Source: a virus. Taken from it: a stretch of 26,791 bases of DNA. The position numbers and the translations under genes were made by a program. Below, piece after piece: positions 2,427-25,935 of the stretch. Below the pieces are notes generated by a model. The model searched no databases. It was not told the DNA's origin and saw nothing but the letters and a program-made list of their open reading frames with translations. The stretch is taken from IMG/VR virus record IMGVR_UViG_3300046655_000944, positions 1-26,791 of that record, one strand, 5' to 3'. Numbering within the stretch: the first letter of the stretch is position 1; each line of letters begins with the position of its first letter.

Positions 2427-2428
2427 AA

Positions 2429-3757: not shown

Positions 3758-3767
3758 GGAGTGAATA

Positions 3768-5300: not shown

Positions 5301-5302
5301 AA

Positions 5303-5614
5303 ATGGCACATTACGCAAAAGTAAAAAATGGAATAGTAGAAAATGTAATTGTAGCAGAAGCAGAGTTTTTTGAAACTTTTGTTGATGATTCTCCAGGTGA
5401 GTGGATTCAAACATCCTATAATACACAGGGAGGAGTACATTATAACCCTACAACTGGAGAGCCTAGCGAAGACCAAAGCAAGGCTCTTCGAAAAAATTAC
5501 GCGACCCCGGGCGGAAACTACAACGAAGAGGCGGATGCGTTTTATCATCCCCAGCCCGGAGCAGACTGGACACTGAATACTACTACGTATTTGTGGGAAG
5601 CACCAGAGGAGTAA
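5303..5614 (+). CDS. Conserved marine-phage small protein inside the fibre array (103 aa)
   Basis: Not a paralogue of the flanking fibre genes. It begins MAHYAKVKNGIVENVIVA and contains FVDDSPGEWIQTSYNT, GGVHY, LRKNYATPGGNYNEEADAFYHPQP and WTLN...YLWEAP. I recognise this as a small protein often found among tail genes of cyanophages and related phages; its function is not known to me. No signal peptide or membrane segment. The gene starts 2 bases after the upstream stop, with GAGG in the last codons of the upstream gene as the likely ribosome binding site, and its own last codons (GAG GAG) form the site for the next gene. Its position suggests a fibre-associated role such as cap, chaperone or adaptor (inference). 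Confidence 0.85.
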   Translation: MAHYAKVKNGIVENVIVAEAEFFETFVDDSPGEWIQTSYNTQGGVHYNPTTGEPSEDQSKALRKNYATPGGNYNEEADAFYHPQPGADWTLNTTTYLWEAPEE

Positions 5615-5617
5615 AGA

Positions 5618-6904
5618 ATGGCAATTAATTTTCCAAATAGCCCATCAAACGGGGCAACTCATACAGCAGGAGGCCAGACATTTACATATGATGGCACTGC
5701 AGGAGTGTGGAATCCTCCCTCGGAAGCTTCTATATCTACAGGTACAAGTGCGCCTTCTGGCCCGGCTCCTGGGGATCTTTGGTTTGATTCGTCTTCTGGT
5801 ACTTTATACTTTTACTATGCTGATGGATCTTCAAATCAATGGGTTAGTGTAACTGGTCCTGCGGGAGCTGCGGGGGCAACAGGAGCCACTGGAGCAAATG
5901 CTGCTCCTGTAACTTACGCTGGAGTAGCAAATCTTCCAACTTCTGGAAATACAATCGGCAGTTTTGCATATATTACAGGCACAGACCAACTCGCTGTAGC
6001 AAAATCAACAAACCACTGGGTTCTTTTTAGTAAGGATGGTTCAACTGATCTACCCACAGTTACGGGAGGAGGGGCTTTAGGTACTTTCACAGCTGGAGGT
6101 ACAACTTATAACTATGCAAAGTTTACTTCGGACGGAACATTTGTAGTTACTGGAACTATAACTGCAGATATAATGATCGTCGCAGGCGGAGGTGGAGGTG
6201 CTGGTACTGGTGGAAATGGCGGTGGTGGTGGAGGTGCTGGTGGCCTTGTATATGCTTCAAGTCAGTCTTTTACTGCAGGAACATATAATGCAGTAATAGG
6301 GGCTGGAGGAGCTTTAGGGCAAAATGGATCAAACTCTACATTTACAGGCCAAACTGCCGCAGTAGGCGGGGGCGCTGGAGGAGCATTTCAATCGGCAGGA
6401 GCTGCTGGAGGCTCTGGAGGAGGTAGCGGACGAGATGGAGGTACCCCAACTCCAGCAGCAGGAACCGCAAATCAAGGTTATGCGGGGGGTGCCGGAGGCG
6501 GAACTTCTTGTGCTTCGGCTGGAGGCGGCGGTGGAGCCGGTGGAGTGGGAGCTGACGGAGGAACTGACTGCGGGTCCTATACTAGTGGAATGTCTGATGG
6601 GGGCGTAGGTGCTTCTACGTACTCTGATTGGCTTGAAGGAGCTTCTGCCGGTGAAGAAGTCGGAGGCACTTGGTATATTGCAGGTGGCGGAGGCGGTGCT
6701 ATGGAAGCAGGTTTTGTTGCAGGAAGAGGTGTAGGCGGTCATGGGGGCGGAGGCGATGGAGCTCACAGTATGAGTACATATGCTGACGGTACGGCAGGAG
6801 CAGCAAATACCGGAGGCGGGGGTGGCGGAGGCCAACTTCGAAGTGGTACACAACGTGCAGCAGGCGCAGGAGGCTCCGGTCTAATATTATTGAGGTGGAC
6901 GTAA
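5618..6904 (+). CDS. Modular fibre paralogue with poly-glycine head (428 aa)
   Basis: Structural fibre or adhesin paralogue with the layout N-module (1-36, MAINFPNSPSNG...FTYDGTAGVW), one SAPSGPAPGDLWFD...YYADG...QWV block (37-79), a short collagen-like run (80-95), a YAGVANLPTSGNTIGSFAYI...HW block (99-140) and a glycine-rich head (about 155-428) opening ADIMIVAGGGGG and ending GLILLRWT. No cadherin-like domain. Unlike the other glycine-rich heads it has two cysteines (C298 and C318) flanking a poly-Gly run, a possible disulfide-closed loop. Ribosome binding site GAGGAG is inside the preceding gene's last codons. Its final codons AGG TGG provide a Shine-Dalgarno-like element for the next gene, whose ATG follows the TAA directly. 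Confidence 0.85.
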   Translation: MAINFPNSPSNGATHTAGGQTFTYDGTAGVWNPPSEASISTGTSAPSGPAPGDLWFDSSSGTLYFYYADGSSNQWVSVTGPAGAAGATGATGANAAPVTYAGVANLPTSGNTIGSFAYITGTDQLAVAKSTNHWVLFSKDGSTDLPTVTGGGALGTFTAGGTTYNYAKFTSDGTFVVTGTITADIMIVAGGGGGAGTGGNGGGGGGAGGLVYASSQSFTAGTYNAVIGAGGALGQNGSNSTFTGQTAAVGGGAGGAFQSAGAAGGSGGGSGRDGGTPTPAAGTANQGYAGGAGGGTSCASAGGGGGAGGVGADGGTDCGSYTSGMSDGGVGASTYSDWLEGASAGEEVGGTWYIAGGGGGAMEAGFVAGRGVGGHGGGGDGAHSMSTYADGTAGAANTGGGGGGGQLRSGTQRAAGAGGSGLILLRWT

Positions 6905-9415
6905 ATGACAGCATTAAATTTTCCAGATAGTCCGAGCAATGGTGATACGTACCAGGGCTATACGTACAATAGTACAAAAGGCACTTGGGCGAAACCAGCG
7001 GAACAAGATGCAAGAACTGCAGTATACGCAAACATTGCAGCATTGCCTACAAGTGGCACTGCTGGTGATATGGCGTATGTAACTGCCACAAATCGTTTAT
7101 ATATTTGGACTGGCACTGGATGGTACAATATTGCATTAATTAATACAAATCCTACTATTTCCGGAGTCAGTTCAAGCTATGCTTTAGCAATTGATGGCAC
7201 AGCTACTACAGTAACGATTACAGCTTCTGACCCGGAAGGTTTACCAATTACTTATAGTATTGTTTCAGATACTTCTGGAAATTCTGCAACGGTAGCTCAA
7301 GGAACAGGCTCAAATACAAACGTATTTACAGTTACTCCTTCAACAAATACAGCGCATGCAGGAACTTTCTCGCTTACATTCCGTGCTTCAGACGGTGTAA
7401 ATATTGCATCTTCGGCAGCTAGCTTTACACTACAATTTAAAGTGGTAAATCAAAATTATACTACAGCTCTTATCACTTCTGTAGGTACAAATAACGCTGT
7501 AAATAACTCGTTTGATGATAAGTCTACGAACGACCATACGATTACTGCTGCTGGTAATGCAACGCAAAACACTTTTAGTCCCTATCGACATGGCGGGTAC
7601 TCGACTTATTTTGATGGTAGCGGTGATTATTTACAGCCAGCAGGCACTACAATTTTTGATATATCAAGTTCAACAGCAAGTTTTACTGTGGAAGCTTGGA
7701 TTAATCCCCCCGCATTACCTTCTGCGGGTGCTTATAACTACAGATTTGGTTCAATTATTTCAAAGGCCGTAGTCTATGTTAGTTTTGGATTTACAAACAA
7801 CGGTACACTACGTTTTTATACCTATAATGGTGCACAAAATTATATAAATTCTGCTGCGGGGGCGATAGAAACTGGAAAATGGCAACACGTTGCTCTAGTT
7901 TCTGATGCGGGCAGTATAACTATATATAAAGACGGAGTCTCTGTAGCTACAGGAACTTTGGTAGCTCCCGCGTCTGCTGGAATAGGTGTTGCTCCTAAAA
8001 TTGCAACAGCAGATACTGGTCAAGCAGCAGATTATATTAATTCTTATGTAACGGACTTAAGAGTAGTTGATGGTACTGCGGTATACACGTCGGCATTTAC
8101 TCCACCAACCGAACGCTTAACTGCAATCACAAATACCAGCTTACTTACTTGTCATCTTCCTTACATAGCTGATGGCTCAACAAATGGTCATGCAATAACT
8201 GTAACTGGGAATACGAGCACGCGACCATTTGCACCTTATGACGCTCAAGAATATTCAGCATCAAGTCATGGCGGGTCGATGTATTTTGATGGTAGTGGCG
8301 ATACGCTGACAATACCCGGAGATGCATCATACCAATTTGGAACTGGAGATTTTACAATTGAGTTTTGGTGGTACCCAAGAAGTGCAACTAACCCTCAGTA
8401 CATTCTAATGCAGAACTTTAACGATGCAAATAATGGTTATTCTAATTGGTTGTTTTATGTAGCTTCTGCTAGTAGTCTAGTTTTATACAGTAGTAGCACT
8501 GGGTCTTCTTGGAATGTACATAGTGGTTTAAGTATAGGCTCTTACATATTAAATCAGTGGAATCATGTGGCAATTACTAGGGAAAGCGGCTCACTAAAAA
8601 CATTTATAAACGGAACCTTAAACACTACTGTATCAAATACAGCGGATTATAGTAATAGTGGGGGAGTTAGAATTAGTTCTTATAACGGCACTAATGATCC
8701 TGCAGTGCAAGCAAGTATTTCAAACTTACGACTAGTAAAAGGCACCGCTGTCTACACCTCCGCCTTTACACCTCCAACAGCACCGCTAACAGCAATCAGT
8801 GGCACCAGTCTACTACTTAAAGGAACAGACGCAGGTATTATTGATAAGGCTCAAACTCCCCGATTTGTTAAACTTTTAGGAAATACAAAGTCGTCTACAA
8901 CTCAAACAAAGTTTCTTTCAAGCTCTATGTACTTTGATGGTACTGGAGATTATATCGAGGCAGACGACCAAGATATAGGAAATTTTGGTAGTGGAGATTT
9001 TACAGCAGAAGGATGGTTCTATCTTACAGCATCTCCTTCAAATTATATTACTATTGCAGAAACACGAGGTAGTGGAGGGTCTACAACTGGCTGGGTTATG
9101 GCAATAAGTGCAGGAGACTTTTATGTTTATTCCGGAGCACTTATCGGAGCAAAAGGAAGTGCTATTTCTTCAAATACATGGTATCACTGGGCTTTTACAA
9201 GAAGCGGCACAGATCAAAAAGTATTTTTAAATGGAACTCAAACAGGTAGCACGTATACAACTGCGCGAAACTATACAGATAACAATTTTACAATAGGAGC
9301 TAAACACGATGCATCTGAATTCTTTACCGGTTATCAAAGTGATGTAAGAATCACCAAAGGTCTCGCAAGATACACAGCGAATTTTACGCCACCAACGGCA
9401 GCATTAAAGGGATAA
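6905..9415 (+). CDS. Modular fibre paralogue with cadherin-like domain and three LamG domains (836 aa)
   Basis: Structural adhesin-type paralogue. N-module 1-33 (MTALNFPDSPSNG...TYNSTKGTW); ANIAALPTSGTAGDMAYV...LYIWTGTGWYNIALIN block (42-80); cadherin-like domain (about 82-180, SDPEGLPITYSI, TFRASDG); then three LamG/concanavalin-like domains at about 232-392, 457-613 and 673-820. Each opens Y-FDG-S/T-GD and carries the family core W-x-H-x-A plus a downstream K/NG-type turn, and the second and third end with R-x-x-KG. Two conserved linkers join them: PPTERLTAI...CHLPY...PFAPYDAQEYSA and PPTAPLTAI...TDAGIIDKAQ...SSTTQTKFL. LamG-type folds commonly bind glycans or proteins, so receptor or surface polysaccharide binding is plausible (inference). 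No Gly-rich part and no collagen run. It follows the previous gene with no gap. Confidence 0.87.
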   Translation: MTALNFPDSPSNGDTYQGYTYNSTKGTWAKPAEQDARTAVYANIAALPTSGTAGDMAYVTATNRLYIWTGTGWYNIALINTNPTISGVSSSYALAIDGTATTVTITASDPEGLPITYSIVSDTSGNSATVAQGTGSNTNVFTVTPSTNTAHAGTFSLTFRASDGVNIASSAASFTLQFKVVNQNYTTALITSVGTNNAVNNSFDDKSTNDHTITAAGNATQNTFSPYRHGGYSTYFDGSGDYLQPAGTTIFDISSSTASFTVEAWINPPALPSAGAYNYRFGSIISKAVVYVSFGFTNNGTLRFYTYNGAQNYINSAAGAIETGKWQHVALVSDAGSITIYKDGVSVATGTLVAPASAGIGVAPKIATADTGQAADYINSYVTDLRVVDGTAVYTSAFTPPTERLTAITNTSLLTCHLPYIADGSTNGHAITVTGNTSTRPFAPYDAQEYSASSHGGSMYFDGSGDTLTIPGDASYQFGTGDFTIEFWWYPRSATNPQYILMQNFNDANNGYSNWLFYVASASSLVLYSSSTGSSWNVHSGLSIGSYILNQWNHVAITRESGSLKTFINGTLNTTVSNTADYSNSGGVRISSYNGTNDPAVQASISNLRLVKGTAVYTSAFTPPTAPLTAISGTSLLLKGTDAGIIDKAQTPRFVKLLGNTKSSTTQTKFLSSSMYFDGTGDYIEADDQDIGNFGSGDFTAEGWFYLTASPSNYITIAETRGSGGSTTGWVMAISAGDFYVYSGALIGAKGSAISSNTWYHWAFTRSGTDQKVFLNGTQTGSTYTTARNYTDNNFTIGAKHDASEFFTGYQSDVRITKGLARYTANFTPPTAALKG

Positions 9416-9419
9416 TATT

Positions 9420-12167
9420 ATGGCAGTAGTAAATTTACCAGATAGTCCCTCCAACGGCACTACAGAAACTGTTGGTGGAATTACTTATACTTACAACTCT
9501 AGTAAGGGTTACTGGACAGCCGCGAGTTCCGGCGGAGGCGGGGGAGGCGGCGGTGGTGCTTCTGTAACTACTGATGACTCTGCTCCAGGATCTCCGAGTG
9601 ATGGAGATCTTTGGTACGATACTGATGATGGAGGAATGTTTGTATACTACGAAGATGCTGATTCTAGTCAGTGGGTAGAAGTAATTGGCTCTGCAGGATC
9701 AGATGGAGCCGCAGGAGCCGCAGGAGCTGATGGCTCTGCAACAGTGGTAGCAACTACAACAGCATTGCTAGCAATTTCTTCTCCTTCTGCAGGAGACCAA
9801 GTATATGTAACTGCAAATAATACTTTATACTTCTACAATGGTAGCGGATGGTATAAAATTGCACTTATAAATACAAACCCAACAATTAGTGGTGTATCTT
9901 CAAGTTATGCTTTAGCAATTGATGGTACTCCTACGACTGTAACAATCACTGCTACAGACCCGGAAGGACTGCCAATTACTTATAGCATTGCTTCAGATAC
10001 TTCAGGAAATATTGCAGCCGTATCACAAGGTACGGGAGCAAATACAAACGTATTTACAGTTACTCCAAGTACAAATACTTCATACGCAGGTTCGTTTAGT
10101 CTTACTTTCCGTGCAAGCGACGGAGTAAATTTTGCTACGGCTCCTGCGACATTTACACTACAATTCTCTGTAGAAAATCAAAAATACACTACAGCTCTTA
10201 TTACTTCTGTGGGAGCAAACAATGCTGATAACAACGACTTTGTAGATTCAAGCACAAACAGCCATACTATTACTGCTGCTGGAAATGTTACACAAAATAC
10301 TTTTAGTCCTTATCGACATGGTGGGTATTCTACTTATTTTGATGGATCGGGCGACTACCTAACTATTCCGGCAATTCAGTTAGGCACTTCGCCTTTTACC
10401 ATAGAAATGTGGGTAAATTTAAGCACGGTCACGACATCCTCAAACATACCATTTTTAAGCTCTGGAACCAGTTCAGCCACAGGTACGTTTCAGTTTGAGA
10501 TTAGCTCAAATAGCAAGCTGGGATTTCAGTATGATTCAGCTTCGACATTTACAACATCATCGGCTTTAACCACCAACACATGGCACCATGTGGCGATTGT
10601 GCGAGAAGGCACTGGAGCAAATGAAACCAAGTTGTATTTGGATGGGACGCTTGCCGGGTCTTCAACTATAGCAACCAATTTCAACAGCACAGCGAGTATT
10701 TTTGTTGGCAGGAATCGCGGAAATAGCACGTATCCAACTGGTTACATTACTGATGTTCGAATTGTGGCAGGTACTGCTGTTTATACATCTGCTTTTTCGC
10801 CCCCTACTGATCGCCTTACCGCTATAGCCAACACCAGCCTACTTACTTGTCACTTACCATATTTTGCTGACGGCTCAACGAATAGTCACACTATTACTGT
10901 AAACGGCAATACTAAAACAGTACCATTTGCACCCTATGACGCACAAGAATACTCTGCAGCAAGTCATGGTGGGTCAATATATTTTGATGGCACGGGTGAT
11001 AGATTACAGCTTTCACAAACTTCATTGAATTTAGGTTCTGATAATTTTTGTGTAGAGGCCTGGGTCTATACAACAGCAACATCCCAACAAACTATTGTTG
11101 GATCTCTAGCCTTTTCAAACGGAACAGGATCATGGTTACTTACTGTAAATTATAATAGTAAAAAAATAAGATTTTTTATGCGTCATGGAGGTGGAACAGT
11201 ACAAGATGCTCAGTTTGAATCAGGTACTTTTCCCACAAATCAATGGACACATGTTGCAGTTACAAGAGAGGGATCGAATATTCGTGCGTTTATAAACGGA
11301 ACTCAAGCAGGTACTACAAATTCCGTATTAGGAAGCAACGCAATAGATAATGCATTGACAAATTACTATGTAGGAGACAATCAGGATGGAAATACGTACT
11401 GGAATGGCAATATCGCAGATCTTCGAGTAGTAAAAGGCACCTCTGTCTATACGGCAGACTTTACTCCTACAACAGCACCTCTCACAGCAATTACAAATAC
11501 AATATTCTTACTACAAAACACAGACGCTGGTATTATTGATAAGGCTCAAGGTGCACGAGATTTTGTACTTACTGGAAATGTTAAATCTTCTACTACTCAA
11601 AATAAGTTTTTAACGACTTCAATGTATTTTGATGGCAGTGGAGACTATATGAAAGCAACAAATAATGACGGATTATTTGATCTTGGTTTCAATGGAGAGC
11701 CTTTTACAATTGAATGGTGGCAATGGTGGCCTACTATACAAGACACAAAGAGCCTCGGCCCTCAAACGGGAGGAGGTTTTGGAGGCTGGAATGGTTCGAA
11801 TGGTCATCAATTAACTCTGTTTACATATAGTAGTGCGGCAACTCTTTTTTATCAATGGTGGAATGGAAGCAGTAGAACTGACTATCAATTTAATCATGGA
11901 GGAGCGTTTACTGCTTCAACTTGGCAGCATATAGCAACAGTTTTTGATGGAACGAATTTGTCTACTTATATTGATGGGAGTCGAGTCGGACATCGTACTA
12001 GCGGCAATACTTTTGGTTCAGTATCAACAAAATATATTAGTTTAGGGTCAAGTATAAATGGAGTAAATCAAACTCCAATATATTACTCCGACGTTCGTAT
12101 TTCAAAAGGATTGGCACGATACTCAGGAGCAACTATTACAGTTCCAACGGCAGCTTTACAGGGGTAA
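9420..12167 (+). CDS. Modular fibre paralogue with the fullest module set and three LamG domains (915 aa)
   Basis: Structural adhesin-type paralogue. N-module 1-33 (MAVVNLPDSPSNG...TYTYNSSKGYW), a nine-Gly linker (38-46), GDLWYD...VYYEDADSSQWVEV block (47-89), collagen-like run (90-106), LYFYNGSGWYKIALIN block (108-151), cadherin-like domain (152-252), and LamG domains at about 303-452, 519-672 and 733-899. Linkers and C-terminus (DVRISKGLARY...PTAALQG) match the 836-aa and 834-aa paralogues closely, while the LamG cores diverge. The core of the first LamG (about bases 10419-10755) has markedly higher GC at third codon positions than other LamG cores in the array, suggesting a separate origin. 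Sugar or protein binding is inferred from the fold. Confidence 0.87.
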   Translation: MAVVNLPDSPSNGTTETVGGITYTYNSSKGYWTAASSGGGGGGGGGASVTTDDSAPGSPSDGDLWYDTDDGGMFVYYEDADSSQWVEVIGSAGSDGAAGAAGADGSATVVATTTALLAISSPSAGDQVYVTANNTLYFYNGSGWYKIALINTNPTISGVSSSYALAIDGTPTTVTITATDPEGLPITYSIASDTSGNIAAVSQGTGANTNVFTVTPSTNTSYAGSFSLTFRASDGVNFATAPATFTLQFSVENQKYTTALITSVGANNADNNDFVDSSTNSHTITAAGNVTQNTFSPYRHGGYSTYFDGSGDYLTIPAIQLGTSPFTIEMWVNLSTVTTSSNIPFLSSGTSSATGTFQFEISSNSKLGFQYDSASTFTTSSALTTNTWHHVAIVREGTGANETKLYLDGTLAGSSTIATNFNSTASIFVGRNRGNSTYPTGYITDVRIVAGTAVYTSAFSPPTDRLTAIANTSLLTCHLPYFADGSTNSHTITVNGNTKTVPFAPYDAQEYSAASHGGSIYFDGTGDRLQLSQTSLNLGSDNFCVEAWVYTTATSQQTIVGSLAFSNGTGSWLLTVNYNSKKIRFFMRHGGGTVQDAQFESGTFPTNQWTHVAVTREGSNIRAFINGTQAGTTNSVLGSNAIDNALTNYYVGDNQDGNTYWNGNIADLRVVKGTSVYTADFTPTTAPLTAITNTIFLLQNTDAGIIDKAQGARDFVLTGNVKSSTTQNKFLTTSMYFDGSGDYMKATNNDGLFDLGFNGEPFTIEWWQWWPTIQDTKSLGPQTGGGFGGWNGSNGHQLTLFTYSSAATLFYQWWNGSSRTDYQFNHGGAFTASTWQHIATVFDGTNLSTYIDGSRVGHRTSGNTFGSVSTKYISLGSSINGVNQTPIYYSDVRISKGLARYSGATITVPTAALQG

Positions 12168-12170
12168 ACA

Positions 12171-13547
12171 ATGGCAACTAACTTTCCAAATAGTCCATCG
12201 AATGGAGCCACACACGTATTCGGCGGCACTACGTATACTTATAACTCTACAAAAGGTGTGTGGACAGCAGATAAAGACGCTGTTGCTGTAAGTGATACTC
12301 CTCCGTCAAATCCGGAGACAGGGGCCTTATGGTTTGATTCAAGTGTAGCAAAAACGTATATTTACTACAGCGACGGCTCTTCTGCACAGTGGGTGCAGCT
12401 AAATCCTTCTGGTGGATCAGATGGTGCAGACGCGACAGGGGATGGTGAAAGTCCTATAATTTATACAGAACCCCCTACTTCGACTCAAGAACTGACGGGC
12501 GGCAGTACTAGCACTGTGCAAATGCAGGCAGTCGATCCCGAAGGGACTGCAATTACATACGGTATTGCTTATGCAAACTCTACAAATGCAAGACCTGCTC
12601 AATTATCGGCGGATACAACTATAAATCAAACCACGGGAGTTTTTACTTTTACAGCTAGCAATAATTCAGCTAATGCGGGTAATTTTAAAGCACGATTAAG
12701 TGCTTCCGATGGCGTTGGTATTACTACACGTTTTCTAAACTTTGTGTTAACCTTCAATGTAGATATAGAGCTTCTTCTCATTGCAGGGGGCGGCGGTGGA
12801 AATGACGAAGCCGGTGGCGGTGGAGGTGCTGGAGGTCTTGTTCTTAACAACTCATATACAGCGCTCGGAGGAACAACATATAATATTGTAATTGGAACAG
12901 GAGGTACAGCTTCACAAGTACAAGGAACTCGAGCAGACCCTGGTGTAGATAGCACGTGGAGTCAAGGATCTACTTTAGTATATACTGCAACAGGTGGAGG
13001 AGGTGGAGGAAACTATCCGCATTCTGGATCTGGTGATGGAGGCTCTGGAGCTGGTGCTGGTAGAGCTACTGGAGCAAGTGATAACGGTTCTTCTACTCAG
13101 GCAAGCTACTCAGGGTTAGGTTTTGGCAACGATGGGGGTATATCTACTTCTGCGGCAGGAGCCGGTGGGGGTGGCGGTGCTGGCGGTGTAGGAGCGAATG
13201 GTCAATATTATTCAAACTATGCTGCAGGTTCAGGTGCTAATGGAGGTGCAGGAAAAGCAGTTTCAATTACAGGTTCCAGTGTTTTCTACTCTCCGGGAGG
13301 TCCGGGAGCAGGCCACGATGTTGCAGTAGGAAATTATGTAGATGGTTCTGCGACTAGCTATGGTGCTGGAGGGGCTGGGGGACAGTGGAATGGCTTAGCT
13401 CCAGCGTATAATGGGAAAGAAGGAATCTGTATTATTGCAGCACAACAAGCAGCAGCTGCAGTAACAGGGACGTATACTCTAGACACTAGCGGTAGATCGG
13501 GATATCATGTATATACTTTTACAGGCAATGGTAGCATTACATTCTAA
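12171..13547 (+). CDS. Modular fibre paralogue, cadherin-like plus poly-glycine head (458 aa)
   Basis: Structural adhesin-type paralogue. N-module 1-32 (MATNFPNSPSNG...TYTYNSTKGVW); a GALWFD...IYYSDGSSAQWVQL block (38-78, GAL in place of GDL); a degenerate Gly/Asp spacer; a cadherin-like domain (about 93-195, ESPIIYTEPPT, DPEGTAITYGIAY, KARLSASDG); and a glycine-rich head (about 199-425) opening ELLLIAGGGGG. It closes with GYHVYTFTGNGSITF, like the 442-aa paralogue. The cadherin-like domain is of the subtype in the first fibre gene rather than that of the LamG paralogues, so modules have been recombined. It lacks the YANVA-type block seen in the others. It starts 3 bases after the upstream stop. 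Confidence 0.85.
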   Translation: MATNFPNSPSNGATHVFGGTTYTYNSTKGVWTADKDAVAVSDTPPSNPETGALWFDSSVAKTYIYYSDGSSAQWVQLNPSGGSDGADATGDGESPIIYTEPPTSTQELTGGSTSTVQMQAVDPEGTAITYGIAYANSTNARPAQLSADTTINQTTGVFTFTASNNSANAGNFKARLSASDGVGITTRFLNFVLTFNVDIELLLIAGGGGGNDEAGGGGGAGGLVLNNSYTALGGTTYNIVIGTGGTASQVQGTRADPGVDSTWSQGSTLVYTATGGGGGGNYPHSGSGDGGSGAGAGRATGASDNGSSTQASYSGLGFGNDGGISTSAAGAGGGGGAGGVGANGQYYSNYAAGSGANGGAGKAVSITGSSVFYSPGGPGAGHDVAVGNYVDGSATSYGAGGAGGQWNGLAPAYNGKEGICIIAAQQAAAAVTGTYTLDTSGRSGYHVYTFTGNGSITF

Positions 13548-13557
13548 GGAGTAAAGA

Positions 13558-16062
13558 ATGGCAATTAATTTTACAGACAGTCCATCAAATGGAGCTACGC
13601 AAACAATCAGTGGGCGTACGTATACATACAATAGTGCAAAAAATAAGTGGGATACTACTGCTACAGAGGTAGTAGGCCCAACTGCAACTGTATACGCGTC
13701 TGTAGATAATCTTCCTACTTCGGGAAATATTACTGGTAGCCAAGCTTTTGTAAGCGGTACAAACCGACTTTACATCTGGAATGGTACTGGTTGGTATAAT
13801 ATTGCACTTATTAATAATACTCCCACGATTAGTGGAGCAAGTAGTTCTTATGCACTTGCAACTGATGGTACAGCCACAACTGTAACTCTTGTGGCTACAG
13901 ACCCAGAAGGACTGCCAATTACTTATAGTATTGCTAGTGATACTTCCGGTAATGCTGCGGCTGTAGCTCAGGGAACGGGTTCAAATACAAACGTATTTAC
14001 GATTACTCCTTCGACAAATACAGCTCATGCCGGAACTTTTAGTCTTACATTCCGTGCAAGTGATGGTGTAAATCTGGCAACTGCTGTATCTTCCTTTACA
14101 TTACAGTTTAAGGTTCAGAATCAAAAGTATACTACAGCACTCATTACTTCAGTAGGGGCAAACAATGCTGTTAACACTTCTTTTGACGATAAGTCTACAA
14201 ACGACCATACAATTACTGTAGCAGGAGACGCACATCAAACTACATTTAGCCCTTATCGACATGGTGGGTATTCGACTTATTTTGATGGCACTGGTGATTA
14301 TTTAAAAGTAACAGACTCAGCCGAACATGATTTTGGAACAGGTGATTTCAGTATGGAATTTTTCTGGTGGCCTGAAACGGTAACTGGAAATAGTGGAAAC
14401 ATACATATAATGATTTCTGCTCCAAATAATAGTCATAATCAGTTTATCTACCATGAGTCCAACTATTGGTACTACGCTGCCGGGTCTGGAGGTGCTACAG
14501 TTATACCCAGCTCTACAGGAGCTGCCACTGCTAAGACATGGAATCATGTGGTTCTTTGTAGATCTGGAACTACAATGAGTATATTTAGTAATGGTAGTCG
14601 AACTGCAACAGTGCAGTCAAGTGCAGCAGTTGATTTTTCTCATGCAACTATTGGTCGATATGATAGTGGAGGCTATGAAGTAGACGGATATATTCGAGAT
14701 ATGAGATGGTTAAAAGGAAGCTCTGCCTACGATGCTACACAAACATCTATAACAGTTCCGACCGAGCCTCTTACAGCAGTAACAAACACTACTCTCCTTG
14801 CTTGTCACTTACCTTATATTGCTGATGGTTCTACTACAGGCCATAGTATAGCTGTAAATGGCAATACTAAAACACTACCATTTGCACCTTATGACGTACA
14901 AGAATACTCAGCAACAGAGCATCTTGGATCTGCGCATTTTGATGGTACTGGTGATTATTTAAGTATTGCGGATCACGCAGATTTAGATATGGGTAGTTCG
15001 GATTTTACAATAGAAGGTTGGTATTATCCAGTTGTAACTCCGGGCGGAATGAATGGATTACTTTCAAAACGAGCAAATAGCAGTGAAGCAAACGGAATTT
15101 TAATATATTTTGGAGGCACTAGCACGGGCGAACCCTCCCTTTTAGTTGCACAGTCTGGTTCTTGGGCAATCAACACAGCTTCAAGTATAACTTTTAAAAC
15201 TGGCCAGTGGAATCATTTTGCAATTGTAAGAAATGGAACTAGTTTTAAACTTTACATTAATGGAAAAGCAGGAGTATCAGTTACTAGTTCTATTACTGTA
15301 ACTGATAATGGACATGCATTTATAATAGGAGCAATGGGAGCTGACGGTAGTAATCCCTTAGCAGAATCTAATATATCTGATTTTCGTGTAGTAAAAGGCA
15401 CTGCAGTTTATACAGCAGATTTTACTCCTCCCACAGCACCTCTCACAGCAGTTACAAATACAAAACTACTTGTACAAAGCACAGACGCAGGCATCATTGA
15501 TAAGGCTCAGTCAAATACGTTGCTAACCCTAACGGGGGATACTAAGTCATCGACTACTCAAACTAAGTATCTAAGCTCGTCAATGTACTTTGATGGTTCG
15601 GGAGACAATATTTATACAGATGTGCTGACTACAGCGGGAGATTTTACTGTTGAAATGTGGATTCGATTTGATGGTCAAATTCCTAATCCTGCCAATCAGT
15701 CTCCTACATTTTTTGTTTGGGGGACAACAACATTTATGCTGTATGCTACTAGTACTACAGGTGTTTTGAACATGATAGGCAATGGATCTGGATTAATTAG
15801 TTCAAGCACTGCCATGACTGCAGATACTTGGCATCATGTTGCATTTGCGAGACAAGGAAGTACTGGAAGATTATTCTTAAATGGAACCTTAGAAGGTTCA
15901 ACAACTTCTTTTTCTACGAATCTAAACGCTAGAGCTGTTATAGGCTCAGAAGAAAGCCTCGGATACCCATTTAAAGGTTATATGTCCGATGTAAGAATCA
16001 CAAAAGGTCTAGCAAGATATACGAGTAATTTCACACCGCCAGCAGCGGCATTACAAGGGTAA
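13558..16062 (+). CDS. Modular fibre paralogue with cadherin-like domain and three LamG domains (834 aa)
   Basis: Last gene of the array. N-module 1-31 (MAINFTDSPSNG...TYTYNSAKNKW); ASVDNLPTSGNITGSQAFV...LYIWNGTGWYNIALIN block (47-86); cadherin-like domain (89-186); LamG domains at about 238-388, 457-613 and 674-818, with core elements WNHVVLCRSG, WNHFAIVRNG and WHHVAFARQG. Module order equals that of the 836-aa paralogue, but the cores are strongly diverged while linkers and the C-terminus (DVRITKGLARYTSNFTPP) stay similar. A single Cys is kept in the first linker (L-L-T/A-CHLPY) of all three LamG paralogues. AAGGAG lies 7 bases before the ATG. The gene ends four bases before the shared terminator stem. 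Confidence 0.87.
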   Translation: MAINFTDSPSNGATQTISGRTYTYNSAKNKWDTTATEVVGPTATVYASVDNLPTSGNITGSQAFVSGTNRLYIWNGTGWYNIALINNTPTISGASSSYALATDGTATTVTLVATDPEGLPITYSIASDTSGNAAAVAQGTGSNTNVFTITPSTNTAHAGTFSLTFRASDGVNLATAVSSFTLQFKVQNQKYTTALITSVGANNAVNTSFDDKSTNDHTITVAGDAHQTTFSPYRHGGYSTYFDGTGDYLKVTDSAEHDFGTGDFSMEFFWWPETVTGNSGNIHIMISAPNNSHNQFIYHESNYWYYAAGSGGATVIPSSTGAATAKTWNHVVLCRSGTTMSIFSNGSRTATVQSSAAVDFSHATIGRYDSGGYEVDGYIRDMRWLKGSSAYDATQTSITVPTEPLTAVTNTTLLACHLPYIADGSTTGHSIAVNGNTKTLPFAPYDVQEYSATEHLGSAHFDGTGDYLSIADHADLDMGSSDFTIEGWYYPVVTPGGMNGLLSKRANSSEANGILIYFGGTSTGEPSLLVAQSGSWAINTASSITFKTGQWNHFAIVRNGTSFKLYINGKAGVSVTSSITVTDNGHAFIIGAMGADGSNPLAESNISDFRVVKGTAVYTADFTPPTAPLTAVTNTKLLVQSTDAGIIDKAQSNTLLTLTGDTKSSTTQTKYLSSSMYFDGSGDNIYTDVLTTAGDFTVEMWIRFDGQIPNPANQSPTFFVWGTTTFMLYATSTTGVLNMIGNGSGLISSSTAMTADTWHHVAFARQGSTGRLFLNGTLEGSTTSFSTNLNARAVIGSEESLGYPFKGYMSDVRITKGLARYTSNFTPPAAALQG

Positions 16063-16065
16063 TAA

Positions 16066-16087
16066 AAAAGGGGCTATTGCCCCTTTT
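16066..16087. terminator. Bidirectional intrinsic terminator between convergent gene sets
   Basis: A 9-bp perfect inverted repeat, AAAAGGGGC, loop TATT, GCCCCTTTT. On the + strand the T run belongs to the right arm and continues TTTTCTATTTC; on the - strand the stem is followed by TTTTTTATT, so it should work both ways. It ends the fibre array (stop at 16060-16062) and the replication cluster. The stop codon of the 81-aa - strand gene (16074-16076) starts in the stem and lies mostly in the loop. Confidence 0.85.
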
Positions 16088-20847: not shown

Positions 20848-22644
20848 TTAGTACTCTAGTTTGCTGACGTTGTCGCATTTAATAACCTCTATTTTCTCAA
20901 GCAGTGGATGACTCCATCCGTGACTAACAATATAAGTATTTAGATCTTCTTGAAGAAGAACTTCTACTATTTTTTCCCGACCTGTTTCGTCAAGAACATT
21001 GATAACCTCGTCCAAGAATAAGACATTTATCCTGGATTTGGAAATACTACTCATCAGCTTTCGAATTGCAACTAGTGTTGCTGTGTTAACCCGGGCTAAC
21101 TCTCCACTCGAAAGCGCAAGAATGTCTACAACATTTCCATTGTCAGTGACTTGTACATTTAACTTATCATTTGTTACTACAAATTCAAGTGTAAATCTAC
21201 CGTCTGAAAGTTCTGCTAGATAGTGGTTTGCGAGTTCTTCTAACTCTTTTACAAGGTTTTCGATCTTGTATGCAACTAAACCATTTGTACTAAAAGACTT
21301 TTTTAGTACTTCTAGATTTGATGAAAGCTCTCCTATACTCTTTAACTTTTCGTGTGCTTTTTCGAGTTGAGCGCAAAATTCATCAGTTTGTTCTTGTATT
21401 ACTTGGATTCTGGTGTTGTGTTTTGTTCGCTGCTCATTTTCTTTTGCAATACGCTCCACTTCGCTTTTTGCTCTGCCCAAGTCATCTCGTACTCTAGCCA
21501 AGCGCTTTTCCAGCTCGTTTTTATCCAAGAGGGCCACTGGGAGACTTCTGTCGATACTTCGATACAAGTCTTCCCAATCCCTTTCAATTTTTCGAGCACT
21601 ATCGTACTCTCGATTGTTTCGTTTAATTTCTGATATTCTTCTTTCAATTTCATCTTGTTTTTCTCTCGCCTCTGCAACCTTTTTCGATTCCTCCAGGAGG
21701 AGGGCTTGTTTAAAGTCAGAGTCTACTGTCTGTTCACACGTAGGACAGTGATCTCCGAGTTTGTTGAGTTTTTCTAGTAATTTTTTAGACCCCGCTACGA
21801 CCCCGTTGAGACTTCCTAGCTCTGACTGTAAGTCATCATACGATTCTTTCTTTTCAACAGTGCATTTTCTAGCGTCATTAATATCTACTTGTCGGAGCAG
21901 TTCAATATAAGAATTGTTTTTAGAAATTTTTTTATTTTTTTCCGAAATATTTTCAATCTCTTTTGTTAAAAATCGAAATTCTTTCTCTTCTTCCTCCGTA
22001 TCAATTTCTAAATTTAGCATTGGCAGTACATTGGTATCTGTCAATTTGTTATCTGTCAACCATTTTTCAATCGTACTTACCTGACTGTTAAGTGTGTTTA
22101 CTTCCATAGAAATATCTCTGGAAGCAGACTTAAATAATTCAAAAAGCTCAACATACTTTTCTAAAGATAAAAGCTCAATTAAAAACTTTTTTCTATTAGT
22201 ATCTGTGGCTGTTAGGAATTGTAGACTTGCGTTTGTATTTTGGTATACGAGTTGTGAAAAGGTCTTAAAATCTATGCCTATAACTTCTTGTATAGACTTA
22301 TATGTGTTTGTAGCTGTATGGCTAGATACATCCTCTCCATTCTTTTCGAATTTTACTTTTACGTTTGTTTTTCGATTTACGGTTATTTTATATTCATCGT
22401 CATCACGAGTAAAATCAAGAATTATATCATAGCCATTATTTACATAACGATTAGGAATATCTGCTTTTTTAATTCCTTTTGAATTTTTATTATACAGAGC
22501 CTCTTCAATAATTAAAGGAATAGAACTTTTACCCATACCATTTGTACCTAAGATTTGGGTTAAAGTTCTTTCATCCAGCATTATTTCATTGCCTTGTCCG
22601 TAACTAAAACAATTATTCCATTGCAACTTTTGAAGCGTAATCAT
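20848..22644 (-). CDS. sbcC: SbcC/Rad50-like recombination ATPase, phage gp46 type (598 aa)
   Basis: ATPase partner of the SbcD-like nuclease; the pair resects and opens DNA ends for recombination-dependent replication and host DNA degradation. Seen: Walker A GTNGMGKSS (33-41), a long coiled coil (about 170-450) interrupted by the zinc hook CPTC (300-303), ABC signature LSSGE (511-515), Walker B VLFLDE (541-546) and the switch His in VSHGW (H575). Length is near that of T4 gp46 and much shorter than bacterial SbcC. The ATG overlaps the SbcD gene by 32 bases, with AGGA eight bases upstream. Confidence 0.94.
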   Translation of the reverse strand: MITLQKLQWNNCFSYGQGNEIMLDERTLTQILGTNGMGKSSIPLIIEEALYNKNSKGIKKADIPNRYVNNGYDIILDFTRDDDEYKITVNRKTNVKVKFEKNGEDVSSHTATNTYKSIQEVIGIDFKTFSQLVYQNTNASLQFLTATDTNRKKFLIELLSLEKYVELFELFKSASRDISMEVNTLNSQVSTIEKWLTDNKLTDTNVLPMLNLEIDTEEEEKEFRFLTKEIENISEKNKKISKNNSYIELLRQVDINDARKCTVEKKESYDDLQSELGSLNGVVAGSKKLLEKLNKLGDHCPTCEQTVDSDFKQALLLEESKKVAEAREKQDEIERRISEIKRNNREYDSARKIERDWEDLYRSIDRSLPVALLDKNELEKRLARVRDDLGRAKSEVERIAKENEQRTKHNTRIQVIQEQTDEFCAQLEKAHEKLKSIGELSSNLEVLKKSFSTNGLVAYKIENLVKELEELANHYLAELSDGRFTLEFVVTNDKLNVQVTDNGNVVDILALSSGELARVNTATLVAIRKLMSSISKSRINVLFLDEVINVLDETGREKIVEVLLQEDLNTYIVSHGWSHPLLEKIEVIKCDNVSKLEY

Positions 22645-23572
22645 TAAAAGTTCCTATAATATCTGGTATTCGTGCTTCTTCTATTTCTAATACAAATTGC
22701 AAGTATTCTGTAAGCTCTTCTTGAATTGTCATTTCCTTATCAAGAAGTAATGCTGCCTCACTATTTCTTCTCACAACTTTTTTATCTAGTAGTTCTGAGT
22801 TTTTTATATCTGCGAGCTCTTGTATGTCCCCTTCTATTTCATATATTGTGTGGTCGTACTCAGTAGGTATCATTTCTTCTGTACTATTTACAGTCTTACG
22901 TATCAATTGTGGAAGGTCAAAAGGCTCCCATATCCAAGACCAGTCGTCTGGATTTATAAGAAGATAACCAGTAGTTACATTAGTTCTATGAAAGGAAGTC
23001 GTCATTGGACTGCCAGGATATACAATATTACGCTGAGTATTACTATGTGCGTGTAGGTCTCCTGCAAATACGATAGGAAAATCCTCAAACCTGTCTAAGT
23101 CCACCTCTGGCTTGACATGGGGAGGTATCTCTCCTCGTACATGAGTAAACAGTGGTTCTGTCTGTATAAACTTTTCAATGCTTCCTTTTCTATGTAAGTC
23201 GGCGTAAGGAAGAACACCAAAACCAAGATCGGAATCACGATATGAAATATCCACTATCTGTACTAAAGGGTTAATATCTCTACTTGCTTGTTTTAGCTGT
23301 GTAAAGAAAGTTTTATTTTTCTTGGTAGCTTCGTGGTTTCCATCATAGATAAGAGTTGGAATACTTACTCCTCGTATAAAAGAAAAGTAAAGTTCTAACT
23401 CTTCCATATTAGGAAGGCGATCAAAGAGATCGCCCCCAATAATGTGCATATTGCACATCTTCTCCAAGCTATGTATTTGCTTAAAAAATAACGTGTACCT
23501 ATCTAAAGCCCAAGAAACTGGGACATTTTTCTGCCCCAGTTTTATATGCCAATCGGCTGTAAAAAGAATCAT
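22613..23572 (-). CDS. sbcD: SbcD/Mre11-like nuclease, phage gp47 type (319 aa)
   Basis: Metal-dependent phosphoesterase nuclease subunit acting with the SbcC-like ATPase on DNA ends. Metallophosphatase motifs are in order: ADWH (D7, H9), GGDLFDR (D48), DGNHE (N79, H80), H144 in FTHVRGE, and GDLHAH (H174, H176). The C-terminal third is the capping and ATPase-binding part. The ATG overlaps the SSB stop by four bases (ATGA); there is no strong independent ribosome binding site, so translation is probably coupled. Length is close to T4 gp47 (339 aa). Confidence 0.93.
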   Translation of the reverse strand: MILFTADWHIKLGQKNVPVSWALDRYTLFFKQIHSLEKMCNMHIIGGDLFDRLPNMEELELYFSFIRGVSIPTLIYDGNHEATKKNKTFFTQLKQASRDINPLVQIVDISYRDSDLGFGVLPYADLHRKGSIEKFIQTEPLFTHVRGEIPPHVKPEVDLDRFEDFPIVFAGDLHAHSNTQRNIVYPGSPMTTSFHRTNVTTGYLLINPDDWSWIWEPFDLPQLIRKTVNSTEEMIPTEYDHTIYEIEGDIQELADIKNSELLDKKVVRRNSEAALLLDKEMTIQEELTEYLQFVLEIEEARIPDIIGTFNDYASKVAME

Positions 23573-24204
23573 GCAACGTCAAACTCTTTCTCTAGTGCTT
23601 CTTCGTCTACATTAGCTTCATTGCTAGCGCCCTCTCGTACTCTATCGAGTAACTCTTTTTGTGCGTCTGGGGTTGGCCGAGGCATAACATCGTCCATAGA
23701 CTTCAGATCGGCAATTAGTGACAGCTCATCCTCATCAAGAGCACGAGACTTACACTTGAGCACCTGTACTTGATACTCTACATTATAGGGCAAAGGACCC
23801 GTCTTAACTCGCTTAAACTTGACATCCCAACCAGTTTTAGTGTCAGTAGGATCGCCTAGATCTTCGGCAGCTGTCATGATCTGCTCAAAAAGCTTCTTCT
23901 TTAAGTTAAAGACTTTTAAGTCACCATTGTGAATGCACTGCATAGCATAGCTCCATCCACATTTCAGATCGGGGTAGTATTCACGAACCCAGTCTTTTTC
24001 TTTATTATTAAAACGCTCTTCGTCTCGATCAAAAGAAAGACATTCCAAAGGAATATTCTTCCCATTTTCGCCTTCGATCCAGTAAACGTAACGAGCCAAT
24101 ACGTCGCCTACAAGCCGAACATTATTGTCGCCATCCTGTGGAACAAAAGTGTTGATTGAACTTTTTTGAGCTGCGCCCTTTGCTTTGTTAAATGTAAGTG
24201 CCAT
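23569..24204 (-). CDS. gp32-like single-stranded DNA-binding protein (211 aa)
   Basis: Likely coats single-stranded DNA at the fork and organises replication and recombination proteins. The layout fits T4 gp32: a basic N-terminal stretch (LTFNKAKGAAQKS, similar in kind to the gp32 cooperativity motif), an OB-fold-like core (about 28-155) with KVFNLKKKLFEQIMTAAEDLG followed by GWDVKFKRVKTG, a DVMPRPTPDAQKELLDRV segment resembling the gp32 end of the core, and an acidic C-terminal tail (DEEALEKEFDVA) of the sort that binds partners. The gp32 zinc ligands are not convincingly present. Good AAGGAG upstream; ATG overlaps the previous stop by one base (TAATG). It is the first strongly translated gene after the promoter at 24612-24640. 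Confidence 0.78.
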   Translation of the reverse strand: MALTFNKAKGAAQKSSINTFVPQDGDNNVRLVGDVLARYVYWIEGENGKNIPLECLSFDRDEERFNNKEKDWVREYYPDLKCGWSYAMQCIHNGDLKVFNLKKKLFEQIMTAAEDLGDPTDTKTGWDVKFKRVKTGPLPYNVEYQVQVLKCKSRALDEDELSLIADLKSMDDVMPRPTPDAQKELLDRVREGASNEANVDEEALEKEFDVA

Positions 24205-24611
24205 TAATGTATCTCCTTTTTAGATGGACTTCTTTCATATAAAAAATGTATTTTATCATCTTTTATATCGAGTAGCCTGTTTTCGTAAATGTGTATTAAA
24301 GCTTCTTCTGGTACAAGTATTATATCTAGTGTTATTTTATGAGTAGAATAGAAATCAGAAATAGGCCGCAAAGCAGCAACGCCTGTATATACAGCCACTT
24401 CTCGAAAAGAATATTTATATCCATCGTATAATAATCTTTCTGGATGAACTAGAAAACTTGTACCATCAAAGTTTATCTGTGAGTAAAAAAATGTTTTGTC
24501 ATACTTATTCTTTGGAATGCGTTTTTCTACCAACATTCGTAGTATCCGCACAATATCTACAGGATCACCTGCTGCTGTAGAATAGACTTTTTTCCAATCG
24601 AATAATAACAT
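24204..24611 (-). CDS. Conserved phage protein of unknown function (135 aa)
   Basis: Function unknown. It begins MLLFDWKKVYSTAAGDPVDI and contains FLVHPERLLYDGYKYSFREVAVY, AALRPISDFY and a C-terminal strand-rich part. I recall similar proteins beginning MLLFDW in phage replication clusters, which favours this start. No membrane segment or catalytic motif. Oddity: the ATG has no Shine-Dalgarno and directly abuts the -10 box of a consensus promoter, so transcripts from that promoter would lack the ATG. It could be translated only from upstream read-through, or from an internal start such as Met26. Position suggests a replication accessory (inference). Confidence 0.78.
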   Translation of the reverse strand: MLLFDWKKVYSTAAGDPVDIVRILRMLVEKRIPKNKYDKTFFYSQINFDGTSFLVHPERLLYDGYKYSFREVAVYTGVAALRPISDFYSTHKITLDIILVPEEALIHIYENRLLDIKDDKIHFLYERSPSKKEIH

Positions 24612-24640
24612 ATTATACTAAAATTTAACGTAAATGTCAA
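24612..24640 (-). promoter_or_regulatory. Perfect consensus sigma-70 promoter
   Basis: On the - strand, TTGACA (24640-24635), a 17-base spacer (24634-24618), then TATAAT (24617-24612). Upstream lies an A-rich stretch (AGAAAAATAG) like an UP element. It fills the 40-base gap between the helicase and 135-aa genes. Expected start site is near 24606-24603, inside the 135-aa reading frame. It would drive the SSB, SbcD, SbcC, nuclease, exonuclease and reductase genes by host RNA polymerase. Confidence 0.82.
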
Positions 24641-24651
24641 GAACTATTTTT

Positions 24652-25935
24652 CTATACTTGATTGATGTGCCAACCCTGCTTCATATAGTATCCCATTCTA
24701 TTGGAAGCCTGCTTTCGAGCAGTGTTCCCTTTTAGATGAATGTCTACTATTACTGGGGTCTTTTTTCCTTCTCGCTCTCGGATGACTCTTCCAATGAGCT
24801 GTGTGAGGAGGGGTTCATTGTTGATAGGGGTACCGAGTATAAGGACAGAGAGGGCATTAACTGATATGCCTTCGCTAAATATTGCTTGAGTCCCAAAAAG
24901 AATGTTTTTATCACCATAATTTATCTCATTTAAGAATGTTTCACGTTCTTCGTGAGGAACATCCCCTGTAACACATACTGCTTTTTCGCCTGCTAGTATA
25001 GCACAGTTCTTTAAAAAGTTTACTCGATCTGATACTACTAGAACTTTGTGCCCTCTTGCCGCATAGTAAGAAGCAAGCATTGCAACTGTGTGAATGTATT
25101 CTTCATTTGTTGCTAGATTAGTAACTCTGTTAGCCCACGGTGTCCTGGCGCCATCCATAAACCTTATTTCTGACTTTATAATATCTACTTTTGGAGTCAT
25201 AAAGTTTTCTTTTGGCGGCTTAAATACCTTTTGACTAAAGTAATCTCGAAAGACTACGTGTTTTCCATCTTTGCGCTCGATTGTACCACTCAGTCCGATT
25301 TTGTACCGTGCGTGGTTTGTGTCGATGATCTTTGAAAAAGTTGGCGAAGATACATGATGCATTTCGTCCAAGATAATTGTTCCAAAAAGTTTTCGAATTC
25401 TATCGATGTTTCTGTAGAGTGTTTGGGTATTACCAACCACAATACAAGTATCAGTGTTCCAGTTACCACTGCCAATAATTCCAGGAGTAAATCCATATAC
25501 TTTTTCTACCTCTTTTGCCCACTGATTTCGTAGTGGTACTGTATGTGTAATTACTAATGTTTTTTGTCCTAGCTTTCCTGCGATTGCAAGACCTGTAAAA
25601 GTCTTTCCCCAGCTTACCCACGCATTGATGATACTATTATCGTCGAGTTCGTCATAGACGGCTTGTTGAGATTCGCGGAGTACAAACTGAAACTCAGGAA
25701 AATCAACAGGAACCATAACCCTCTTGTCCACCACTTCATATTCATCTGGTATTAAATCCATTCTTCCAATAGGTATACTAACTAAGTTATCCCTCACTCT
25801 TGCCATATTTTTTATTACAAGAGGAGGATCTTTAGGATTAGGCGCAGGCACTTTATAAGTTAATTCTTTACTAAGAACTTCTTTATACTCGGGCGTAACT
25901 TCTAATAATATTCTATTACTAACTACTGCTTTCAT
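24652..25935 (-). CDS. SF2 DNA helicase, UvsW / T5 D10 type (427 aa)
   Basis: ATP-dependent DNA helicase or branch-migration enzyme. RecA-like domain 1 (about 85-235): Q-type motif LRESQQAVYDEL, motif I AWVSWGKT (105-112; a Trp before GK is unusual but fits A-x4-GKT), motif Ia ITHTVPLRNQW, motif II DEMHH (190-194), motif III LSGT (215-218). Domain 2 (about 275-410): motif IV VLVVSDRVNFL, motif V FGTQAIFSEGISV, motif VI QLIGRVIRERE with arginine fingers R383 and R386. T4 UvsW remodels recombination intermediates and R-loops, and T5 D10 is a branch-migration helicase; a similar role fits this context. The ATG overlaps the upstream stop by four bases. Confidence 0.92.
   Translation of the reverse strand: MKAVVSNRILLEVTPEYKEVLSKELTYKVPAPNPKDPPLVIKNMARVRDNLVSIPIGRMDLIPDEYEVVDKRVMVPVDFPEFQFVLRESQQAVYDELDDNSIINAWVSWGKTFTGLAIAGKLGQKTLVITHTVPLRNQWAKEVEKVYGFTPGIIGSGNWNTDTCIVVGNTQTLYRNIDRIRKLFGTIILDEMHHVSSPTFSKIIDTNHARYKIGLSGTIERKDGKHVVFRDYFSQKVFKPPKENFMTPKVDIIKSEIRFMDGARTPWANRVTNLATNEEYIHTVAMLASYYAARGHKVLVVSDRVNFLKNCAILAGEKAVCVTGDVPHEERETFLNEINYGDKNILFGTQAIFSEGISVNALSVLILGTPINNEPLLTQLIGRVIREREGKKTPVIVDIHLKGNTARKQASNRMGYYMKQGWHINQV

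Follow-up and report, generated by a model that had tools for sequence, protein, structure and literature searches.

The window considered here is the whole of a 26,791-base fragment from a T5-like marine phage of an uncultured clade. Its minus strand carries, in succession, the end of a family A polymerase gene (identified from its own sequence and from synteny), a gene for a 164-aa protein, a helicase gene, a gene for a 135-aa protein, the genes for a single-stranded DNA-binding protein (SSB), SbcD and SbcC, and then those for a RusA-like resolvase, a flap nuclease and ribonucleotide reductase (Table 1). Judged on this fragment, the arrangement is that of the T5-like (Demerecviridae-type) replication module, i.e. 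polymerase, hypothetical protein, D10, small protein, D11, D12, D13, resolvase and flap nuclease, with the addition of one small gene and of nrdA/nrdB; the same gene order is found in Pectobacterium phage DU_PP_V, Vibrio phage Ceto and T5. Positions 1-16062 of the window are occupied by long plus-strand genes with repeated glycine-rich and, by eye, LamG-like segments; these share an N-terminal motif, FPDSPSNG..., and are probably paralogues with a receptor-binding or tail-fibre role. A symmetric terminator-like hairpin, AAAAGGGGCTATTGCCCCTTTT (16066-16087), lies precisely where the tail-gene block and the replication-gene block converge.

Table 1. Features at and around the start of the 135-aa gene (positions in the window)
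Feature	Position	Strand	Remarks
T5 D10-like helicase gene	24652..25935	(-)	43% identity to D10 helicases of T5-like phages
A-rich block 5' of the -35 box (AGAAAAATAGTTC; UP-element-like)	24641..24654	(-)	overlaps helicase stop codon; AAAAATA and TTC columns nearly invariant in 67 sequences
Sigma-70-type promoter, TTGACA-17-TATAAT	24612..24640	(-)	12/12 consensus match, unique in the record; conserved in relatives
135-aa protein gene (phrog_4258)	24204..24611	(-)	ATG directly abuts the -10 box; no Shine-Dalgarno; homologues in all relatives
Expected transcription start, A at 24606 or 24603	24603..24606	(-)	predicted, 6-9 nt past the -10 box, in codons 2-3 of the 135-aa gene
SSB gene (T5 D11-like)	23569..24204	(-)	phrog_1607, E 1e-31; Shine-Dalgarno AGGAG, -8.0 kcal/mol
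SbcD and SbcC subunit genes (T5 D12, D13-like)	20848..23572	(-)	PHROGs matches; synteny with Pectobacterium phage DU_PP_V and T5

Between the helicase and 135-aa genes the minus strand reads TTCTTGACA-TTTACGTTAAATTTTAG-TATAAT-ATGTTATTATTC, i.e. a -35 box (TTGACA, 24640-24635), a 17-nt spacer (24634-24618), a -10 box (24617-24612) and the start of the 135-aa gene, the ATG of which (24611-24609, followed by TTA TTA TTC) directly abuts the -10 box. Reading of the sequence thus confirmed the claim of an earlier note that a perfect sigma-70 promoter here abuts a start codon without a Shine-Dalgarno sequence. The note had also held that no other promoter of this quality is present in the window, and a scan of the 26,791-base record with spacers of 16-18 indeed gave a 12/12 match only once; with one mismatch allowed, for which 0.18 matches are expected, the promoter at 24612..24640 is still the sole match. 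A first-order Markov model of the window predicts 0.009 exact matches at a spacing of 17, and 0.028 at 16-18. The 0.009 expectation, together with conservation, rules out a chance promoter, and the promoter is very probably real. Immediately past the -10 box the window has ATGTT and most relatives have ATATG; ATATT is shared, in the discriminator, by the early promoters of T5, which is transcribed throughout by the host sigma-70 polymerase (PMC7472727).

Conservation in relatives, which had been proposed as a check on the promoter, proved decisive for its geometry. Viral contigs with the 135-aa gene numbered 123 and those with the helicase gene 404, 80 being kept in each case, and TTGAC, a 17-bp spacer and TATAAT are retained in all 67 distinct gap sequences, i.e. 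in every relative from the uncultured clade whose gap could be read. The sequence of the spacer varies among the 67 while its length is exactly 17, so that the hexamers and a spacing within the 16-18 bp of sigma-70 promoters are kept as the spacer sequence drifts. Between the -10 box and the ATG there are 2 nt in 43 of these gaps, 0 in 17, 1 in five and 3 in two, and the helicase stop codon and the ATG are 39-48 nt apart in nearly all relatives. Where this distance is 2 nt, almost only pyrimidines occur at positions 6-10 past the -10 box. A second promoter in the helicase tail, the transcripts of which would include the ATG, was rejected: under a strict scan, the final 400 nt of the helicase gene had none in 108 of 109 distinct sequences.

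To judge from the sequences, the ATG of the 135-aa gene is used, since change in its first eight codons follows a coding pattern and the encoded N-terminus is homologous to that in T5-like phages (MKFFDYER, MLFFDYEK etc.). Over codons 2-8 of 102 distinct sequences, the fraction of comparisons showing a difference is 0.19, 0.08 and 0.41 at codon positions 1, 2 and 3, respectively, and W6 and K8 are invariant. A spurious N-terminus, with the ATG a by-product of the discriminator, is ruled out by this coding-like pattern and by the alignment with T5-like homologues. In the window, and in those 2-nt relatives that were read by eye, stop codons are present two or three codons 5' of the ATG, making it the sole ordinary start. 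The match to the phrog_4258 profile is full-length (residues 1-127, E 1.1e-16, PHROGs), and the AlphaFold2 model has a mean pLDDT of 92, and of 97 over residues 1-10, with a strand at residues 2-4. Pfam and PDB sequence searches with the protein gave no match, and the model had no PDB structural match at E <= 0.001; its only strong structural matches were to two uncharacterised viral proteins, one from Proteus phage PM135. The 25 nt before the ATG pair with the anti-Shine-Dalgarno sequence at +0.7 kcal/mol at best, compared with -8.0 kcal/mol for the SSB gene. Mean values in 155 relatives are -7.2 kcal/mol for SSB, -1.2 for the 135-aa start and -1.4 for Met26 of the 135-aa protein, against a background of -1.3.

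Five related contigs (38-101 kb) have 12-17 TTGAC-N18-TATAAT promoters each. By eye, most of these lie 20-30 nt 5' of a gene with a Shine-Dalgarno sequence, and some lie 5-8 nt 5' of a gene, i.e. in a leaderless geometry. Two families recur in the latter class, MSKELTTISPEG at 5-6 nt and MKxYxxKPWS at 6-8 nt. Perfect promoters 5-8 nt before an ATG were observed with the first base of the -35 box at G001:100028- and 89487-; G002:8290+ and 27947+; G004:63345-, 63985- and 71805-; G007:3690- and 15161-; and G011:26198+, and several gene families of T5-like marine phages look leaderless. Because the ATGs of the leaderless class lie 5-8 nt past the same kind of -10 box, the spacing suggests that initiation in T5-like marine phages occurs 6-9 nt past the -10 box, as in E. 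coli. The 135-aa gene is consistently 0-3 nt past its -10 box, outside the 5-8 nt of the leaderless class in all 67 sequences. With transcription starting at either A residue given in Table 1, both of which are inside the gene, the transcript should therefore be without the AUG. The proposal in the earlier note that transcripts start within the 135-aa gene is supported by the conserved 0-3 nt geometry and by the leaderless-class spacing, the 5' end itself being predicted. Its further proposal that the promoter serves SSB also stands, in that SSB has a strong Shine-Dalgarno sequence and should be the first translatable gene on the promoter's transcript. No transcription-start maps for T5 or Demerecviridae were found in the literature searched.

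Taken together, the features observed directly, i.e. the sequence geometry, its conservation, the coding N-terminus and the absence of a Shine-Dalgarno sequence, are best explained, with a probability of about 0.68, by a separation of dose in which a strong SSB promoter would give transcripts that lack the AUG of the 135-aa gene. The promoter would be an early-type sigma-70 promoter of the SSB/recombination operon, and the positional counterpart of P31A/P31B in T5. Host RNA polymerase would start ~6-9 nt past the -10 box, in codons 2-4 of the 135-aa gene, and, the 135-aa AUG being left out of the transcript, the D11-like SSB would be the first protein made, from its strong Shine-Dalgarno sequence ~400 nt downstream. 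The 135-aa protein would be produced only from mRNA started upstream and running through the polymerase and helicase genes, and this read-through mRNA would be translated weakly at the 135-aa start because TATAAT takes the place of a Shine-Dalgarno sequence. On the minus strand there is no terminator-like site from the helicase gene to the start of the 135-aa gene; the only one between helicase and SSB is a weak site inside the 135-aa gene (24380-24365), and such sites are no more frequent than by chance in the scanned region. The outcome would be a high dose for SSB kept apart from a low one for the 135-aa protein, possibly with a separation in timing too.

Within this proposal of dose separation we infer the 5' end, the strength of the promoter, the origin of the read-through mRNA and the physiological purpose, and some points may be raised against it. 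Pyrimidines are poorer start nucleotides, and with the pyrimidines at positions 6-10 past the -10 box in the 2-nt relatives, transcription might start inefficiently or at a point further downstream. A 40-nt gap reduced to a bare promoter could also result from genome compaction alone, and the abutment is absent from T5 and several other cultured relatives (see below). That the arrangement is a device as such, with the promoter held in exact register with a start codon such that one gene is shut out and the next driven, is proposed more tentatively, at somewhat less than even odds. Dose separation, if true, would mean that a compact phage genome sets apart the dose of two neighbours without a terminator, a repressor or RNA structure, through the register in which a start codon follows a -10 box; T5 and its cultured relatives allow a direct test. 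It would also point to a small replication-region protein, lacking a match to a solved fold, the expression of which is held low in several ways.

The same anatomy would be produced by a two-phase switch of the kind suggested in the earlier note, in which early read-through mRNA makes the 135-aa protein and the local promoter later shuts it off, as SSB rises, both by AUG-less transcripts and by polymerase occupying the site. The promoter classes of T5 do fire at different times (PMC7472727), and the tandem promoters of phages Sugarland, Eos and Kamaji would give transcripts both with and without the AUG. However, the discriminator (ATAT / ATGT) resembles the T5 early motif (PMC7472727), such that the local promoter may be equally early. 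The anatomy is explained equally well by a constant dosage effect, and a switch seems rather unlikely. Polymerase on the DNA over a start codon is in any case no block to translation by itself; only a transcript starting past the codon, or interference with the read-through polymerase, would matter.

Passive compaction, whereby the gap has shrunk to the minimum for a promoter, traces of the 135-aa protein suffice and the leader has been lost without selection for silencing, seems about as doubtful as a switch. The gap of 39-48 nt, with an A-rich block that begins at the helicase stop codon and a -10 box that ends at the ATG, is consistent with such a history. By contrast, other strong promoters of the same phages keep leaders of 20-30 nt with a Shine-Dalgarno sequence, and the distance never drifts to the 5-8 nt that would permit leaderless translation.

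Transcription from the A of the ATG itself, with the 135-aa protein made from the promoter's own leaderless transcript, is very improbable; spacings of 5-8 nt do occur at several other genes of these phages, but at 0-3 nt the A lies only 1-4 nt past the -10 box, which is too close for sigma-70 initiation. The -10 box is ~6-7 bp before leaderless genes in Deinococcus-Thermus, and too short a distance led to aberrant expression of Deinococcus reporters (PMC12340547). Least likely, and not favoured on sequence and model grounds, is a 110-aa form made from Met26 on the promoter's transcript, an internal start that was rejected for its lack of a Shine-Dalgarno sequence (mean -1.4 kcal/mol, against the -1.3 of the background): the residue does not vary in the uncultured clade or among 60 aligned homologues, and its equivalent is the annotated start of T5.125, but it is not present in the Pectobacterium DU_PP_V and Vibrio Ceto homologues, and the first strand and helices of the confident model are made up of residues 1-25.

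Turning to cultured phages, the T5 record (AY543070) has the same gene order, with promoters P31A/P31B annotated in the same gap between D10 and T5.125/D11; like the promoter in the window they are sigma-70-type, with TATAAT followed by ATAT. They differ in being two in tandem, with -35 boxes of TTGGCA (17-bp spacer) and TTGCTA (18-bp spacer), and in that there is no abutting ATG but a 29-nt leader with GAGGAG before an apparent ATT start. The ATT is nine bases past GAGGAG in T5, KookSpook, JLBYU43 and TrudiGerster; other phages have ATG, GTG or TTG. T5.125 is annotated (L163:9705-10009) from an internal Met ~26 codons past the ATT (the KookSpook small gene being at L162 near 6500), and the N-terminus following the ATT is conserved, with synonymous changes. 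A start of T5.125 at the ATT, i.e. a natural AUU start in a classic phage, is possible, and would mean that the start codon is misannotated in T5.

Two or three tandem promoter-like sites per gap were found in all eight of the fully read cultured Demerecviridae-type phages; in L200, L201, L202 and L163, the tandem promoters between D10 and the small gene are ~100 nt apart. Between the last two promoters, the T5, Sugarland and Eos gaps contain an inverted repeat (TTCGGA...TCCGAAG) and a block that they share, GCAGAAAAATAAAAA. In T5, Salmonella GEC_vB_N7, Proteus RP7, Vibrio D30 and Vibrio JSF12 the last promoter precedes the start by 25-29 nt; in shorter stretches read, the distance is 19 nt in Ceto and 25-26 nt in the Pectobacterium phages. 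Abutment is therefore not universal, with T5, Epseptimavirus, Proteus, Pectobacterium and Vibrio relatives at 19-29 nt. By contrast, in Klebsiella phage Sugarland, Serratia phage Kamaji and phage Eos, all Demerecviridae, the last promoter is 4, 2 and 1 nt, respectively, before the homologous ATG. These three differ from the window in having a -35 box of TTGCTA or TTGCAA with an 18-bp spacer, and extra promoters ~100 nt upstream (also ~200 nt in Sugarland and Eos); transcripts from the ~100-nt-upstream promoters would include the ATG. On the helicase tree the abutting state needs three label changes, and a single origin with two losses is conceivable. It may be that T5 reaches by its ATT start the same end that Sugarland, Eos and Kamaji reach by abutment; the leader is retained in T5, with what seems a very weak start codon, whereas other lineages retain the codon but would cut it from the transcript.

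The leaderless genes of Deinococcus likewise have a -10 box directly upstream of the start codon, in place of a Shine-Dalgarno sequence. At the ~6-7 bp found there, however, the transcript that the promoter gives is also the one translated into the gene's protein, whereas at the 0-3 nt found here the AUG would be left out. Intragenic promoters that boost downstream operon genes are general practice in bacteria and phages, and likewise lie inside, or at the start of, one gene while serving the next. What distinguishes the promoter described here from intragenic promoters generally is that it is placed exactly on the start codon, in a register that is conserved across a large clade.
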